NCBI RefSeq assembly: GCF_024623785.1
Contig: NZ_JANKBZ010000008.1
Location: 186,001-250,000, forward strand
Direction of reading: 5' to 3'
Source: Archangium lipolyticum
Lineage (GTDB): Bacteria > Myxococcota > Myxococcia > Myxococcales > Myxococcaceae
Length of the DNA stretch: 64,000 nucleotides
The notes under the pieces were generated by a model, which searched no databases, was not told where the DNA came from, and saw only the letters and a program-made list of their open reading frames with translations. A program made the translations under genes and the position numbers. This document shows positions 1,719-16,323 of the stretch, piece after piece; the stretch's first letter is position 1, and each line of letters opens with the position of its first letter.

Positions 1719-3218
1719 TCAGCGGGAAGGGAGGCCGTCCGGCCAGGGGACGTCCCCGCGCGAGGCGATGACGACCTGCTGGATGGGCATGTCGAAGCCG
1801 CGGGAGGACGTGAGGCCCACGGGCTCGAGCAGCCGCCGGAAGTCGGGCATGGACAGCACATCACCCTCGTTGGACACGTAGCGGCGCAGCGAGAAGTAGA
1901 GCGCATCCAGGGGACCATCGCGCCGGTCCGTCAGCAGGTAGCCCGAGATGATGAGCAGCCCCCGGGGACGCAGCGCGCGGGCGAGCTGCCCGAAGAGCCG
2001 CGGCAGCTCCTCGGGAGGCAGCGCGGGGATGACCTGGGGCAGGAGGATGAGATCGTATTGCGCCTCGCCGTAGTCCACGGAGAGGCAGTCCCCGGCCCAA
2101 TAGCGTGCACGGCCGTCCAGCTTGAGCTTCGCGATGTTGGGCTTCACCTGCTCCAGGACGTGCTCGGAGTCCAGGTAGGTGACGTGCACCGTGGGGTCCG
2201 CCAGCCCGAAGGCGGCGCCCCAGACACCCGAGCCGGTGCCCACGTCCAGGACCCGAGCCTCCTTCAGCGGACGCATGGAGGCGACGAGCTCCGCGGCCTT
2301 GCGGCCCAGCTTCACGTGCGAGGCGAAGATGCCGGTGATGCGCGAGGCGTTGCGCTGGTAGATGCGCTTCGCCGTCTCGGGGTCGCGCAGATCCAACCGG
2401 AACTTCCGCTGGGTGACGGCCTCGTCCAGGTGCCCGAAGGCCTCCCAGTAGTCCATGGTGGCCGGGAAGGCGCGCTGGAAGTACGGCAGGCTGCTCGCGT
2501 CCAGGGAGCGGCCGGCCAGCTCGGTGTACCCGAAGGACTCCGCCTCCCGCTGGACGAGGCCCATGGACACGAGCACCTCCAGCAGCACGCGCAGCGCCTC
2601 GGGATGGGAGCCGGTGGCCTTCGCCAGCTCCGCGAGCGGCCGGGGTCCGGACACCAGCGCCTCCAGCAGACCCACCTCACCGCTCGTCACGAGCGCCTGG
2701 GTGCGGAGGAAGTTGCGCGCGGCACGGTCGTCGTAGTCCTCGGCGGTGGTGCTCGACACGGGGGCCCGGGGTTCCAGGAACTCCTTCCGGTACCACCCGA
2801 GCAGGTCGCGGGACTCCCCGTGCCAGTCCACCGGAGCGCCGGTGCGGACGGCCTCGGGCAGCTTCGCGGACACGAGCCACCAGCCGAGCGCCTCGCGCAT
2901 CCGGGCGGCGAAGTCGGGGCGGCGGAGGAAGGCGCTCGCCACCGGGAGCGAATACCCCCTCCCCTCCTCCAGCCGGACGAAGCCGAGCCCCACCAGCGGC
3001 TCGAGGACGGAGCGCGTGCCTCGCACGGTACCGCCGATGCGGGAGGCGAGCGTCTCCAGGGACACCGGCACGGCGGAGCCCTCGTCCGGGAGGTGGGCGA
3101 ACAACCCGAGCGCGAAGGCGCCCAGGAGCGCGGCCGACTCGTTGCTCGCATCGCGGGCCCAGAAGTTGAGCTGTTGGATGAACGCCGTCTGTGAGGACGC
3201 GGGGGGAGACTCCGCCAA
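1719..3218 (-). CDS. SAM-dependent methyltransferase with two winged-helix modules
   Basis: A 499-residue protein. The C-terminal half is a class I methyltransferase: motif I VLDVGTGSG at about 323-331, acidic YLDSEH after strand 2, and a WAGDCLSVDYGEAQYD segment before the LILLPQV strand. The N-terminal part contains two helix-turn-helix-like regions, roughly residues 30-95 and 175-240, each reading like the dimerisation/winged-helix domain found once at the front of plant- and polyketide-type O-methyltransferases. The duplication makes it longer than the usual 340-380 residues. It is first in a two-gene unit with the aminotransferase 15 bp downstream, suggesting joint action on a small metabolite. 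The substrate is unknown. Confidence 0.8.
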   Translation of the reverse strand: MAESPPASSQTAFIQQLNFWARDASNESAALLGAFALGLFAHLPDEGSAVPVSLETLASRIGGTVRGTRSVLEPLVGLGFVRLEEGRGYSLPVASAFLRRPDFAARMREALGWWLVSAKLPEAVRTGAPVDWHGESRDLLGWYRKEFLEPRAPVSSTTAEDYDDRAARNFLRTQALVTSGEVGLLEALVSGPRPLAELAKATGSHPEALRVLLEVLVSMGLVQREAESFGYTELAGRSLDASSLPYFQRAFPATMDYWEAFGHLDEAVTQRKFRLDLRDPETAKRIYQRNASRITGIFASHVKLGRKAAELVASMRPLKEARVLDVGTGSGVWGAAFGLADPTVHVTYLDSEHVLEQVKPNIAKLKLDGRARYWAGDCLSVDYGEAQYDLILLPQVIPALPPEELPRLFGQLARALRPRGLLIISGYLLTDRRDGPLDALYFSLRRYVSNEGDVLSMPDFRRLLEPVGLTSSRGFDMPIQQVVIASRGDVPWPDGLPSR

Positions 3219-3273
3219 GGTGGCTCCTCGTCGGTGGGGGGAGCCCGAGTATGGCCCAGGTGGGCCCGGTCTT

Positions 3274-4422
3274 TCACCTGGGTGGGGACAGGCGCCGCCA
3301 GGCCCCGATGAGCGCTTCCGCGGCGGTCATCACGTCCCCAAGCGTCGTCGTCCGGCCCAGGGACAGGCGCACCGAGCCGAGCGCCTCCCCGGGAGCCACA
3401 CCCATCGCGGTGATGATGGAGGAGGCGGACTCCTCGCCCGCGTGGCACGCCGAGCCCGTGGAGGCAGCCACCTCGGGAGCCGCGGCCAGGAGCGCGGAGC
3501 CGCTCACACCGGGGAAGCGCACGTTGAGGGTGTTCGGCAACCGCTCCTCCAGGTGGCCATTGAGCACCAGTCCCGGGATGCGCGCCCGCAGCCGCGTCCA
3601 GAGCTCGCCCCGCAGCCTGCGCATCCGCGTCTCCTCGCCTTCCACCGTGCGGAGGGCCACCTCGCAGGCCGCCCCGAGCCCCACGATGGACGCGACGTTC
3701 TCCGTGCCCGGGCGCAGGCCCCGCTCATGCCCCGCCCCGAGCAGGACCGGACGCAGCGGCGTTCCCCGGCGCACGTACAGTGCGCCCACGCCCTTGGGGG
3801 CGCCGAACTTGTGGCCCACCACCGTGAGCAGGTCCACGCCCAGCCCATCGACGGACACGGGTAGCTTGCCCACCGACTGGGCCGCATCGGTGTGTACCAG
3901 CACCCCACGGGCGCGGGCCTCGAGGGCCACCTCGGAGATGGGCTGCAGCACGCCCGTCTCGTTGTTGGCATGCATGAGGGTGACGAGCGCCGTGTCGCTC
4001 CGCAGTGCCGCCACGGCCTCGTCGACGCGGATCCGGCCGTCCCCATCCACCGGGAGCCATGTCACCCGCGTGCCGTGTTTCTCCAGCTCGCGGCAGGGCT
4101 CGGTGGTGGCCGGGTGCTCGATGACGGAGGTCAACACGTGCCGCTTCTCCGGGAGCGCGGCCGCCACGCCACGGATGGCGAGGTTGTTGGCCTCCGTCCC
4201 ATGCGCGACGAAGAAGAGCTCCTCCGGGGCGGCGCCGAGCAGCGCCGCCACCTGGGCCCGAGCCCGATCGACGGCCTCGCGGGCCCGGCGTCCATAGACG
4301 TGCGCGCTGGAGGGGTTGCCGAAGTGCTCGCGCAGATACGGGAGCATGGCGTCCACCACCTCGGGCAGCAGCGGCGTGGTGGCATTGTGGTCCAGGTAGA
4401 CAGGGTCGCGTGGAGCACTCAT
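3274..4422 (-). CDS. Cysteine desulfurase (NifS/IscS family)
   Basis: A 382-residue PLP enzyme that removes sulfur from cysteine to supply Fe-S cluster and thio-cofactor synthesis. It opens with VYLDHNATTPL, carries the PLP lysine K205 in GHKFGAPKGVGALY, and the catalytic cysteine C326 in STGSACHAGEESAS, which forms the persulfide. Spacing of these residues matches E. coli IscS (K206, C328). The short insertion after C326 places it nearer to the NifS/group I type. It stands alone: no iscU, iscA or iscR follows, and the gene ends 55 bp before the methyltransferase start, so it may act as a general sulfur donor. It is divergent from rnk across about 186 bp. Confidence 0.93.
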   Translation of the reverse strand: MSAPRDPVYLDHNATTPLLPEVVDAMLPYLREHFGNPSSAHVYGRRAREAVDRARAQVAALLGAAPEELFFVAHGTEANNLAIRGVAAALPEKRHVLTSVIEHPATTEPCRELEKHGTRVTWLPVDGDGRIRVDEAVAALRSDTALVTLMHANNETGVLQPISEVALEARARGVLVHTDAAQSVGKLPVSVDGLGVDLLTVVGHKFGAPKGVGALYVRRGTPLRPVLLGAGHERGLRPGTENVASIVGLGAACEVALRTVEGEETRMRRLRGELWTRLRARIPGLVLNGHLEERLPNTLNVRFPGVSGSALLAAAPEVAASTGSACHAGEESASSIITAMGVAPGEALGSVRLSLGRTTTLGDVMTAAEALIGAWRRLSPPR

Positions 4423-7163: not shown

Positions 7164-7969
7164 TGGACACGGTCGCGGTGAACGGAGAGGTGCGGCGGTG
7201 GGAGGAGCTGCGGCTCCAGGACTTCCTCCAGTCGTTCTTCTTCGGCGCGGGCTTCTTCGAGACGTTCCTCGTCACCGGGGGCGTGCCCATGTTCCTGGAG
7301 CGGCACCTCGCGCGGCTCCGGTCGAGCCTCGAGGCCCATGCGGCCTGCGTGCGCGCGCCACCCGAGGACGTGCTCACCGCCAGGTCCGTCCTCGACTCCC
7401 TGCATCGATGCCTGGAGGCGGATGCCAGCCTGGGGCCTCGCTTCACCGGCGTGGGCAAGCTGGTGGCGGGAGATGGGCGGCTGCTGCTGTCCTTCCGGGA
7501 ACTGCCGGCCCCCCAGGCGCACACCGTCCTCGACGCGCTGGAGGACCGCTGCTACCGGAGGGGCGACCCCACCCTGAGACACAAGAGCATCTCGTACCTG
7601 CGGCAGTACGCGCACTTCGGCCGGGGAACGGTCTTCGCCAACGAGGCCGGGGAGCTCTGCGAGGCGCCGAACGGCAATCTGTTCTTCCTCGTGGGAGACG
7701 CGGTGGTGACTCCGCCCCTGGAGGTCCCCTGCCTCCCGGGCATCATCCGCTCCGTGCTGCTGGAGGAAGGACGGCTCGGGGACATGCCGGTGGTGGAGCG
7801 CACGGTGGGGCGGGAGCAGCTGGAGGACGTCCGGGGCTGTGTCCTCACCAACTCCGTCAGCCTCGCGCTCGCCGTCCCGCGACTGCTCGGGCGGGAGCTG
7901 CCCGGGAGCCACATGCTGGCCGAGCGCGCCCGGGTCGTGGTGCGGGAGTCCGCACGGCGCGAGGGGTGA
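7160..7969 (+). CDS. pabC: Aminodeoxychorismate lyase-like PLP enzyme (PabC, fold type IV)
   Basis: A 269-residue member of the branched-chain aminotransferase/4-amino-4-deoxychorismate lyase family, expected to split aminodeoxychorismate into p-aminobenzoate and pyruvate. [13 protein letters not shown] corresponds to the usual GDGxFET start, [11 protein letters not shown] carries the PLP lysine K142, and [16 protein letters not shown] is the family's cofactor-phosphate region. ATG 7160 overlaps the pabA stop by four bases. A D-amino-acid transaminase role cannot be excluded from sequence alone, but placement directly behind component I and II genes makes the lyase assignment the best reading. 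It converges tail-to-tail with the hybrid kinase six bases away. Confidence 0.85.
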
Positions 7970-7975
7970 AGCCCC

Positions 7976-10378
7976 TCACTCCACTTTCGGAGAGAGGGGG
8001 TGGGACCGCACCGGGACGTGACGCGGCAGCCGCACCGTGAAGGTCGTGCCCTCGCCAGCGCTGGAGCTCACGTCGACGGAGCCCCCATGGGCCCGGACGA
8101 TGCTGTCCACGATGAAGAGGCCCAGGCCGATGCTGCGGCTCGCCCGATCCACCTCGGAGGCGCCTCGCGTCATGGGCTGGAAGAGACGCTGACGCAGCTC
8201 GGGAGGGATGGGGTCGCCCGTGTTGTGGACCTCCAGGGAGACCTGGCCGTCATGGCCGCGCGTCACCACCGTGACGAGGGTACCCGCGGGGCTGTACTTC
8301 GCCGCGTTGGACACCAGGTTGGTGATGACCTGGGCCAGGCGGTCGGGGTCCCACTGCCCCTGCCCGTCCCCCTCCGAGTCCACCCGGAAGCTCCGCTCGG
8401 GGTAGCTCATCCGCACCTCGTCCAGCACCTGGCGGGTGAGGGCGTGCAGGTCGAGCGGAGCGGGATGGATGGGGATGCCGCCGCCCAGGCGCGCCTGGGT
8501 GAAGTCCAGCAAGTCCCTCACCATGCGGGCGGCGCGCTCGGCCGAGGACTGGATGCGGGTGGCGGTCAGCGCCTGGCTCTCATCCAGACCGTTCCGCCGC
8601 CGCAGGAGGCTCTGCGCACCGAGGAGAATGGCGGTGATGGGGTTGCGCAAATCGTGGCTGACGATGCCGACCAGCTGCTGCGCGAACTCGGCCCGGCGCC
8701 GCAGCTCCTCCTCGGCGCGCTTGCGCTCGGTGATGTCGCGGCTGGTGCCCGCGATGGCCTCCACCTGCCCGTCCGGTCCGAAGATGGGGGCGTAGATGTA
8801 CTCGTAATGGCCAGTGCCGGAGGCGCTCGTGTACGGGTTGTCGCCACGCACGGGCCTCCCCGTGCGCAGCACCTCGTCGAGCTGCCGCCGGTGCTTCTCT
8901 ACCAGCTCGGGGGGATAGCCCAGTTCCTGGAAGTTCCTCCCCACCGCCTCCTCCAACCGCTTGCCCCAGAGCTGCAACAACGAGCGGTTGACGTAGGTGA
9001 AGCGGTGCCGCCGGTCGAACAGGTACATGAAGTCCGGATGGGCGGTCAGCATGGTGTCGAAGGTGCGCGCCTGCCGCTCGTATTGGACGGCGAGCTCACG
9101 GTAGCGCGCTTCACTCTCCCGCAGGGCCGCCTCCAGGCGCTTCGTCTGCGTCACGTCCCGCGCCACGGCGAAGATGAGTCCCTGCTCCGCCATCGACGCC
9201 GACGTCCACGACAACCAGCGATAGCTCCCATCCCTGCACCGGTAGCGGTTCTCGAAGTGCAGCGTGTGCCCTCCCCGGGCGAGATTCTCCACCTCGGAGC
9301 GGGTGGCCGAGAGATCCTCCGGGTGCAGGAGGCTGGCGAAGGGACGGGAGAGCAATTCCTCTTCGCTCCAGCCCAGCGTCTGGGAGAAGGCGGGGTTGAC
9401 GCGCTTGAAGAAGCCATCCGTCCCCGCCACGGCCAGCAGATCGTGCGAGAGACGGAAGAAGTTGTCGAACTCGGCCTCGACGCGCTTCCTCGCCGTCACG
9501 TCCATGAAGGTGGCGACGCCCGCTATCCGTTGCCCTCGCGCATCGAGCACCGGACCCGAGGAGATGCTGAGCGTGACGCGGCTGCCGTCCGCGCGCGCCA
9601 CCTCCACCTCCTCGCCCTCCACCACCTCACCGGAGAGGAGGCTTCGGGACAGGGGCCACTCCTCACAGCGGTAGGGCCGGCCGTCCGGGTGGATGCCCCG
9701 GAGGGCGTCTCCGTACTCGCTCACCCCCTGCGAGGCCCGGAAGGGGTAGCGAAGAATCTGCTCCACGCGCGCGCTGGCCAGCAGCAGCTTGCCGGAGGGC
9801 TCCGCCACGAGGACACCCGAGGGCATCTGCTGGAGGACGGCATCGAAGAGGGCACGCTGTGCCTCCGCCTCGCCCAGCAGCCGCTCGCGCTCGCGCACGA
9901 GCGCCTCGACCTCGGCCCGCGCCGCCCGCTCGCGCGCCAATACGGCGTCCCGCTCCCGCTCGGCCTCACGGTGGCGGCGCTCCAACACGGCCTTCTCGAT
10001 GGCGTTGTGCGTCGCCCGGTAGAGGCTCGCCGGGGTGATGTCGGACTTGATCAGGTAGTCCGAGGCACCCGCCTTCATCGCCGACACCGCCACCCTTTCA
10101 CTGCCCCGCCCCGTCACCAGCACCACCGGAGGAGCCGCCTCGCCGAGCACCTCCTTCAACCGCCGCAGGAAGCCCAGGCCGTCCATCCCCGGCAACCCGT
10201 AGTCGAGGATGACGCAGTCCACGGGATGGGCCAGACAGAGCGCGAGCCCCTCTTCCGCGTCCTCCGATTCGATGAAGGACCAGGTGTGGTCCTGTTCCTG
10301 TCGCAGGAACGCCGCCCAGGTGCCCCGGTCCTCGGGGCTGTCGTCCACGAGTAGCAGGGTAAAGGAGGACGCCGTCAT
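7976..10378 (-). CDS. Receiver-first hybrid sensor histidine kinase with multiple PAS domains
   Basis: An 800-residue cytosolic kinase without membrane segments. Order: receiver domain 5-125 (phospho-acceptor in CVILDYGLPGMDG), a charged coiled coil of about 60 residues, three PAS/PAC modules (about 190-320, 325-450 and 460-580), a HisKA box with the phosphorylated histidine in GIVSHDLRNPITAIL, and an HATPase domain ending near GLGLFIVDSIVRAHGG. The receiver sits upstream of the sensor part, so phosphate may be received from another kinase before PAS sensing. There is no DNA-binding output. ATG 10378 overlaps the TGA of the pseudouridine synthase gene (ATGA), so the two are one transcription unit. 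Confidence 0.9.
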   Translation of the reverse strand: MTASSFTLLLVDDSPEDRGTWAAFLRQEQDHTWSFIESEDAEEGLALCLAHPVDCVILDYGLPGMDGLGFLRRLKEVLGEAAPPVVLVTGRGSERVAVSAMKAGASDYLIKSDITPASLYRATHNAIEKAVLERRHREAERERDAVLARERAARAEVEALVRERERLLGEAEAQRALFDAVLQQMPSGVLVAEPSGKLLLASARVEQILRYPFRASQGVSEYGDALRGIHPDGRPYRCEEWPLSRSLLSGEVVEGEEVEVARADGSRVTLSISSGPVLDARGQRIAGVATFMDVTARKRVEAEFDNFFRLSHDLLAVAGTDGFFKRVNPAFSQTLGWSEEELLSRPFASLLHPEDLSATRSEVENLARGGHTLHFENRYRCRDGSYRWLSWTSASMAEQGLIFAVARDVTQTKRLEAALRESEARYRELAVQYERQARTFDTMLTAHPDFMYLFDRRHRFTYVNRSLLQLWGKRLEEAVGRNFQELGYPPELVEKHRRQLDEVLRTGRPVRGDNPYTSASGTGHYEYIYAPIFGPDGQVEAIAGTSRDITERKRAEEELRRRAEFAQQLVGIVSHDLRNPITAILLGAQSLLRRRNGLDESQALTATRIQSSAERAARMVRDLLDFTQARLGGGIPIHPAPLDLHALTRQVLDEVRMSYPERSFRVDSEGDGQGQWDPDRLAQVITNLVSNAAKYSPAGTLVTVVTRGHDGQVSLEVHNTGDPIPPELRQRLFQPMTRGASEVDRASRSIGLGLFIVDSIVRAHGGSVDVSSSAGEGTTFTVRLPRHVPVRSHPLSPKVE

Positions 10379-15337: not shown

Positions 15338-15356
15338 GATAATCAGAATCATTATC
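15338..15356 (+). promoter_or_regulatory. Fur box (ferric uptake regulator operator)
   Basis: GATAATCAGAATCATTATC matches the 19-bp Fur consensus GATAATGATAATCATTATC at 17 of 19 positions and is palindromic. It lies 30 bp upstream of the CxC miniprotein start in an otherwise GC-rich stretch, where a promoter would be. This predicts that the miniprotein and the heme-oxygenase-like gene behind it are repressed by iron-loaded Fur and expressed under iron starvation. Confidence 0.85.
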
Positions 15357-15385: not shown

Positions 15386-15613
15386 ATGCCGACTCCTACC
15401 TGCTGCCGCACCCTCCTGGCCCACGGCCCCAGCGCGGAAGTAGCGCGCTGCACCTGCGGGCACATCCACCTGAGCCTCGGACCCATGACGATCCGCATGG
15501 ACGAGGACACGCTGCACGCGGTCTGGCACACGATGGGCGATGCGCTGCGGGCCCTGTCCCGGGCCCCCGAGCGGACTGCCGAGCCGGTCACCGCCGGAGG
15601 GTGGAAGCAGTGA
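15386..15613 (+). CDS. Small CxC protein of a Fur-box-preceded operon
   Basis: A 75-residue cytosolic protein with no signal peptide. It contains CCRTLLAH, then CTCGHIHLSLGPMTIRMD and a helix HAVWHTMGDALRALS. The C-x-C-G-x-I-H-L motif plus the CC pair and histidines could hold a metal (zinc or iron) or a redox centre. I do not recognise a named family; small proteins with a CxCGxxHL knuckle and a following leucine-rich helix occur next to iron or heme genes in other bacteria, but this is only recall. Its TGA overlaps the GTG of the heme-oxygenase-like gene, and a near-perfect Fur box precedes it, so a role in iron or heme handling is the best inference. Confidence 0.7.
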   Translation: MPTPTCCRTLLAHGPSAEVARCTCGHIHLSLGPMTIRMDEDTLHAVWHTMGDALRALSRAPERTAEPVTAGGWKQ

Positions 15614-16323
15614 GCACGCTGACGGAGCTGCTGCGGCGGGTCACCGCCGACGAGGCGCAGGCCGTGATGCGCACGCCCCTCGCCCTGCGGCTCGCGAGGG
15701 GCACGCTGGAGCGGAGTGACTACGTGCGGCTCCTGTCCAGCCTCCAGGCGCTCTACGCGGAGCTGGAGTGGGCGCTCATGTGGAACCGCGCGCACCCCAC
15801 GGTGGGCCCCCTCTGCCTGCCCGAGCTGTGGCGCAACGAGCTGTTGCAGGACGATCTGCGCGCCCTGCTCGGCCCGGGCTGGTACTCGAGCACGCCCCGC
15901 CACCACGCGGCGCCGTACGTGGAGCGGCTCGGGCTCCTGTGCGACGAGGCCCCCGGGTTGCTCGCCGCGCACGCCTGGGTGCTCTACGCCACACCGCTGC
16001 CCGGCGCGGGCCAGACGGGCACCGGTATCGCCCGGGCACTCGGGCTGCGTGGGAACGCGGGCACCGTCTTCCTCCGCCACTCCACCCACCTGGACGGAGA
16101 GGCCTACCGGGCGCACCTGCTCGATACGTTGGATCGCATGCCCGTGGAGGAGCGGGGACGCGCGGCGCTCGCCGACGAGGCCCGGCTCGCCGTGCGCGGA
16201 GTGCACATGCTCTTCGCGGCACTCGGCCGGAGCCTCACCCCGGCGCACGCCGAGCGGCGCGAGGGCTCGAGGATGGGAGGCTGGCTGCCGCGAGCGCTGA
16301 TCCCCGCGCGCGGCATGTCCTGA
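15610..16323 (+). CDS. Heme-oxygenase-fold protein lacking the proximal histidine
   Basis: A 237-residue protein that matches the HemO/HO-1 helical fold: TPLALRLARGTLERSDYVRLLSSLQALYAELE aligns without gaps to the HO-1 segment following its heme-ligand histidine, and HAWVLYATPLPGAGQTG takes the place of the distal-helix YLGDLSGGQ segment. At the position of the proximal histidine (HO-1 H25) this protein has alanine (ADEAQAV), and no histidine occurs in the first 60 residues; the distal GDLSGG glycine/aspartate pattern is also altered. It may therefore be a degenerate or re-purposed heme-oxygenase homologue. GTG 15610 overlaps the upstream TGA and has GGAGG nine bases before it. It is expected to share iron control through the Fur box. 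Confidence 0.7.
   Translation: MSTLTELLRRVTADEAQAVMRTPLALRLARGTLERSDYVRLLSSLQALYAELEWALMWNRAHPTVGPLCLPELWRNELLQDDLRALLGPGWYSSTPRHHAAPYVERLGLLCDEAPGLLAAHAWVLYATPLPGAGQTGTGIARALGLRGNAGTVFLRHSTHLDGEAYRAHLLDTLDRMPVEERGRAALADEARLAVRGVHMLFAALGRSLTPAHAERREGSRMGGWLPRALIPARGMS

Follow-up and report, generated by a model that had tools for sequence, protein, structure and literature searches.

Heme oxygenases with and without the proximal histidine

The canonical heme oxygenases of the PF01126 family, such as HO-1, HO-2, HmuO, LepHO and Synechocystis HO1, are the closest relatives of the protein described here, called HO-A, with which they share fold, length, sequence family and the core residues Y49, E53, D82, L117-L118, H121 and E190. 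However, HO-A lacks the proximal His that binds the heme iron, and the equivalents of Glu29, Tyr134, Arg136, Gly139, Asp140, Ser142, Gly144 and Arg183 are changed.

Two eukaryotic proteins of this fold are known to lack the ligand His. PfHO, from Plasmodium, has no HO activity and is needed for the apicoplast (PMC11634067). The Arabidopsis protein AtHO2, as described where it is cited in PMC11634067, carries Arg instead of the ligand His and has no HO activity. The Arg of AtHO2 matches that of Corallococcus HO-A, and the distal residues of PfHO are also altered. AtHO2 and PfHO are, however, plastid or apicoplast proteins in which classical HO activity is absent, whereas HO-A is bacterial and probably inactive. 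HO-A also differs from them in having a Fur-box-like site, a small CxCG partner, and members with and without the His within one genus.

A third related system is the BphO-BphP-response regulator operon reported for myxobacteria (PMC6126659). The genome that encodes HO-A has a locus with this arrangement on contig 9, which contains a second PF01126 member, HO-B, followed by a phytochrome (PAS_2, GAF, PHY, HisKA and HATPase domains) and then a response regulator. Unlike HO-A, HO-B keeps the ligand His (ETRPHHER) and a distal motif, GSTLGG, and no Fur-box match is present within its 14-kb locus. Since this His-bearing HO sits in a phytochrome operon, biliverdin for light sensing need not come from HO-A.

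Searches of the open literature yielded no paper on a pseudo-HO from bacteria or on HO-A of myxobacteria. HO-A has the HO fold, has lost the ligand His and is encoded by a gene under selection, the three features that define a pseudo-HO, and it is best read, by analogy, as a bacterial counterpart of AtHO2 and PfHO.

The HO-A protein and its fold

HO-A is encoded in the window, that is, the whole 64-kb stretch of DNA analysed, which belongs to the 12.6-Mb genome of a predatory soil bacterium of the Myxococcaceae (G000); Archangium lansinium represents the same genus in our genome set. The open reading frame starts with a GTG codon at 15610 and its stop codon occupies 16321-16323 (Table 1). PF01126 (Heme_oxygenase) is the only Pfam match (E=4.2e-23, 82.7 bits, cut-off 23), and phmmer searches of the PDB gave good scores for true heme oxygenases only, the best being Leptospira HO (5kzl, 5e-16). 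The AlphaFold2 model, obtained from an alignment of 60 sequences (pLDDT 88.2, pTM 0.86), superimposes on HO-1 and HO-2 with Z up to 29.2 and an rmsd of 1.7 Å over about 210 residues (Foldseek, VIA-align), and human H25R mutant structures are among its fold matches. Both the profile score and the all-helical HO fold place HO-A in PF01126.

Table 1. Position of the HO-A operon features in the 64-kb window.
Feature	Position	Strand	Basis
Fur-box-like operator GATAATCAGAATCATTATC	15338..15356	+	17/19 consensus bases
75-aa partner protein, invariant C22-x-C24-G, C-terminal ...GGWKQ, predicted beta-beta-beta-beta-alpha	15386..15613	+	ORF, AF2 model, genome adjacency
GTGA overlap, stop of partner gene sharing bases with HO-A start	15610..15613	+	Sequence; translational coupling inferred
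HO-A, heme-oxygenase-fold protein without heme-ligand His, 237 aa	15610..16323	+	PF01126 match, AF2 model, HO-1 fold match
Ala16 codon GCG, position of proximal heme ligand (HO-1 His25)	15655..15657	+	Alignments, orthologue survey
TPLPGA (residues 128-133) replacing distal-helix GDLSGG	15991..16008	+	Alignments, orthologue survey
Leu171 codon replacing propionate-contacting Arg (HO-1 Arg183)	16120..16122	+	Comparison with 19 canonical HOs and 62 HO-A

Loss of the heme-binding site

The original prediction held that the HO-1-like proximal segment of this protein aligns without gaps with Ala at the ligand position, that His is absent from the first 60 residues, and that the distal GDLSGG motif is altered; it proposed structure prediction, alignment with known HOs and a survey of homologues. 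All three statements are borne out. The proximal helices of HO-A and Leptospira HO align gap-free (SLATILREGTSEEH over TLTELLRRVTADEA), with the iron-ligand His paired with Ala16, and the model, which has the HO fold (Z 29, 1.7 Å), gives the same pairing. The earliest His of HO-A is H62, and the distal motif reads TPLPGA. A misalignment of the ligand position was ruled out by the gap-free register, which the structure comparison and the flanking invariant residues L8 and T12 support; the first helix of the model, unbroken from residue 4 to residue 20, fixes this register. An alternative proximal ligand was also ruled out, as no His, Cys, Met or Tyr of the proximal helix is conserved in the Archangium clade. 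Two Archangium orthologues (L004 and L005) carry a His at the residue immediately after the ligand position; it is not conserved and, as it is shifted by one residue within a continuous helix, would be predicted to point away from the heme.

The rest of the heme site is changed as well. Following the heme contacts given in the Leptospira HO structure paper (PMC5542595) and standard HO-1 numbering, Glu29 is replaced by Met, Tyr134 by Trp and Arg136 by Leu. In the distal motif Gly139 has become Thr and Asp140 Pro, the equivalents of Ser142 and Gly144 are also altered in comparison with canonical HOs, and Gly143 is retained. With respect to the propionate contacts, the changes of Lys18 to R9 and of Lys179 to R167 are conservative, and Arg183 is replaced by Leu171. 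Thus, HO-A has neither the proximal His, nor the distal GDLSGG, nor the propionate-contact set (K18, K179, R183) of a catalytic HO. Among the 43 columns with at least 90% conservation across 70 canonical sequences, HO-A has lost 8 of the 10 heme-contact columns vs 5 of the 33 others (Fisher p=3e-4), which indicates that the damage is focused on the heme site and is not fold-wide.

Distribution and maintenance of HO-A

The HO-A set comprises 62 proteins, the window protein and its orthologues in 61 further genomes of the family, belonging to Archangium, Cystobacter-like genera, Corallococcus, Myxococcus, a Hyalangium/Stigmatella-type genus and the genus g4. The survey extends the initial observation to these 61 genomes, since their orthologues have all lost the distal motif and most of them the ligand His; the loss is thus neither a product of chance nor a sequencing artefact of a single genome. 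Neither Gly139, in whose place Thr, Leu, Gln or Arg is found, nor Arg183 remains in any of the 62 proteins, and the ligand His is absent in 52 (51 of the 61 orthologues), with Ala, Val, Leu, Thr or Arg in its place. The ligand position is occupied by Ala, Val, Leu or Thr in Archangium and the Cystobacter-like genera (n=11) and by Arg in Corallococcus (16), g4 (2) and the Hyalangium/Stigmatella-type genus (6); Myxococcus proteins have His (10), Ala (8), Arg (6), Leu (2) or Val (1). The 19 canonical comparators show His and Arg183 in 19/19 and Gly139 in 18/19: the 13 outgroup HOs have all three residues and the six canonical HOs from Myxococcota have His and Arg183 in 6/6 and Gly139 in 5/6. Y49, E53, D82, H121 and E190 are invariant throughout the HO-A set. 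A complete loss of heme chemistry is nevertheless unproven clade-wide, because ten Myxococcus orthologues have the His and Asp140, Glu29 and Arg136 are retained in most HO-A proteins from outside Archangium.

In a tree of HOs built without the ligand column, the HO-A proteins group together (support 82, a node that is not starred), and five changes between His and non-His are counted among all rows. Since Gly139 is absent throughout HO-A, the distal site was probably lost first, the His drifting or being lost repeatedly afterwards. A re-gain of the His in Myxococcus is also possible, as Arg to His requires one transition (CGC to CAC).

HO-A is the sole PF01126 match in nine genomes, five of them Myxococcus with a His-bearing HO-A (G096, G101, G110, G112 and G113); this situation is thus found in 5 of the 10 genomes with a His-bearing HO-A vs 4 of the 52 without the His (Fisher p=0.004). 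The association is a lead only and might reflect shared ancestry, since four of the five genomes form one clade.

Other structural variation was observed. HO-A proteins of Corallococcus, Myxococcus and the Hyalangium/Stigmatella-type genus have an N-terminal extension of up to about 45 aa (for instance L024, L022 and L014) and an insertion of 8-9 residues after the proximal helix (GTWGTSVYGQ type), the latter being absent in Archangium. Outside the HO-A clade, a cyanobacterial PF01126 protein (L124, Acaryochloris sp. IP29b_bin.176, match 3001-3597) shows DLSIGQ where canonical HOs have DLSGGQ, and its ligand residue is Arg, so that it looks like a pseudo-HO of independent origin. A divergent Myxococcota PF01126 protein (L062, G129, 7656-8282) has Trp as ligand residue and no GDLSGG; these two look like independent losses. 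The ligand region of an otherwise canonical HO from Piscinibacter aquaticus (L081), AAAHADLAGPPPVE, resembles a local frameshift.

Pairwise dN/dS values of HO-A within genera are 0.20-0.49, and those of HO-B, which these genomes encode as a second HO, 0.15-0.22. HO-A is therefore maintained under purifying selection, with a constraint looser than that of HO-B. A pseudogene was ruled out by these values and by the open frame found in every genome checked.

An operon with a Fur-box-like site

The operon structure, the regulatory site and the His-bearing HO-B had been passed over by the original prediction. The stop of the partner gene overlaps the start of HO-A, an overlap of the GTGA kind also being present at most orthologous junctions; both genes are adjacent in 56 genomes, and no neighbour beyond this pair is consistently conserved across genera. 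The Fur-box-like site GATAATCAGAATCATTATC lies 29 nt upstream of the partner gene. It is the sole site scoring at least 16 within the 64-kb window, and none of 100 simulated Markov-1 windows contained a site scoring at least 14. In the other genomes scanned, the HO-linked small gene is preceded, at a distance of 13-36 nt, by a site with 13-17 of the 19 bases. In six genomes of the Hyalangium/Stigmatella type the two genes are apart; the site then lies directly upstream of the HO-A gene, and the small genes scanned in this genus also have their own. Fur would thus probably control the partner/HO-A operon in vivo.

With respect to heme acquisition, the genome contains three HmuY-type candidates for heme capture, and neither HemS nor a degrader of the DUF2470/HugZ type was found in it. 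In Myxococcus xanthus, tan cells induce the genes for hemin transport and myxochelin (PMC3986340), which makes the use of heme under iron stress plausible in Myxococcaceae.

The CxCG partner protein family

The partner protein of the window contains the motif C22-x-C24-G-H-I-H, and GH[IF]H is present in all HO-A-linked copies from Myxococcaceae. It has no match in Pfam or NCBIfam, and its AlphaFold2 model (four strands and one helix, pLDDT 83) has no fold match in the PDB. Profile searches detected members of this undescribed small CxCG family (A3) in 75 of 195 Myxococcota genomes (loci include L237-L245, L064 and L066). Away from HO-A, these genes are found next to those for HmuY (in one case with a TonB receptor), imelysin and a di-heme oxidoreductase (DHOR), a HugZ-like CREG/DUF2470 protein, flavodoxin and Fur, a strong association, based on gene neighbourhood, of the family with iron and heme genes. 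None of the HO-bearing non-myxobacterial loci examined carried a partner gene. In a Myxococcales MAG (L135) a His-bearing HO is preceded, at about 0.9 kb, by the small gene, an arrangement that suggests that the ancestral unit consisted of the small protein and a working HO. HO-A and its partner may interact.

Possible functions of HO-A

The fold, the missing residues, their loss across the clade, the conserved operon, the Fur-box match and the purifying selection are computed here. The original prediction left two outcomes, heme being held differently or the fold having a new job. Its premise stands, as canonical binding and cleavage look abolished, and more thoroughly than it had noted (E29, Y134, R136, G139, D140 and R183 are affected as well); sequence alone does not choose between unusual heme binding and no heme at all.

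Our best guess, which we consider reasonably probable, is that HO-A is a pseudo-HO, probably induced by iron starvation, which acts with its partner in non-catalytic handling of heme/tetrapyrrole or iron. On the simplest account, the heme oxygenase of the operon would have lost catalysis in an ancestor of these genera and been kept for a non-catalytic role. HO-A keeps the HO fold but has lost the residues for heme-iron binding, propionate anchoring and O2 activation, which would preclude classical heme cleavage. Iron starvation would relieve repression by Fur, HO-A would then be made and translated together with the CxCG partner, and both might participate in binding, delivery or signalling of heme/tetrapyrrole or iron, biliverdin for the phytochrome being made separately by HO-B. 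Lost activity, Fur control in cells, heme binding, contact with the partner and the nature of the ligand are inferences. The faster evolution of HO-A relative to HO-B counts against this pseudo-HO reading, but a clade-wide loss in a selectively maintained, apparently iron-regulated gene speaks for a job, retained or new, and not for decay.

It seems unlikely, although it merits attention, that HO-A still degrades heme by means of another ligand, possibly one that the CxCGHIH protein, translated along with HO-A, provides in trans. The activity of HO-1 H25A is restored by added imidazole, and the partner offers an invariant Cys pair together with the GH[IF]H of the HO-A-linked Myxococcaceae copies. 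As the genome has HmuY-type candidates but HemS and DUF2470/HugZ-type genes were not found in it, a heme degrader regulated by Fur would make sense, and HO-A, the only HO-like gene found with an iron-regulation signature, is the sole candidate found. However, the Archangium clade conserves none of the residues His, Cys, Met and Tyr on its proximal helix, Thr, Leu, Gln or Arg stands in for Gly139, and no HO-A protein retains the propionate Arg. The presence of the partner family beside unrelated iron genes also indicates that it probably did not evolve as a ligand donor.

The reuse of the HO fold as a heme-free scaffold for protein-protein contacts or regulation, as proposed for PfHO, which functions without degrading heme (PMC11634067), is quite improbable here. 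Such a scaffold would fit the bulky side chains that cover the heme face and the lost propionate contact, both seen in all HO-A, but the Fur box and the heme and iron genes near which the partner family occurs argue for a link with iron or heme, and no binding partner is known. Very doubtful, too, is a two-part iron-starvation complex in which the CxCGHIH protein would give the heme ligand to HO-A in trans, as a split-site HO or a heme chaperone. Finally, HO-A is most unlikely to be the decaying remnant of an HO for iron acquisition, since, although its ligand residue is variable (A, V, L, T, R, H) and its dN/dS is above that of HO-B, it is kept with partner and Fur box in many species, its Y49, E53, D82, H121 and E190 do not vary and its dN/dS is well below 1.

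Significance of a probable bacterial branch of pseudo-heme oxygenases

In about 60 genomes the automatic annotation of HO-A as heme oxygenase is probably wrong on chemistry. Pseudo-HOs are known from plants and malaria parasites, where their jobs are mostly unclear, and HO-A would represent a bacterial branch. This branch has a genetically tractable member (Myxococcus), an iron-regulation signature and a fixed partner gene, and it includes close natural variants that either have or lack the ligand His, so that the role of a dead HO may be approached directly by knock-out or binding experiments.
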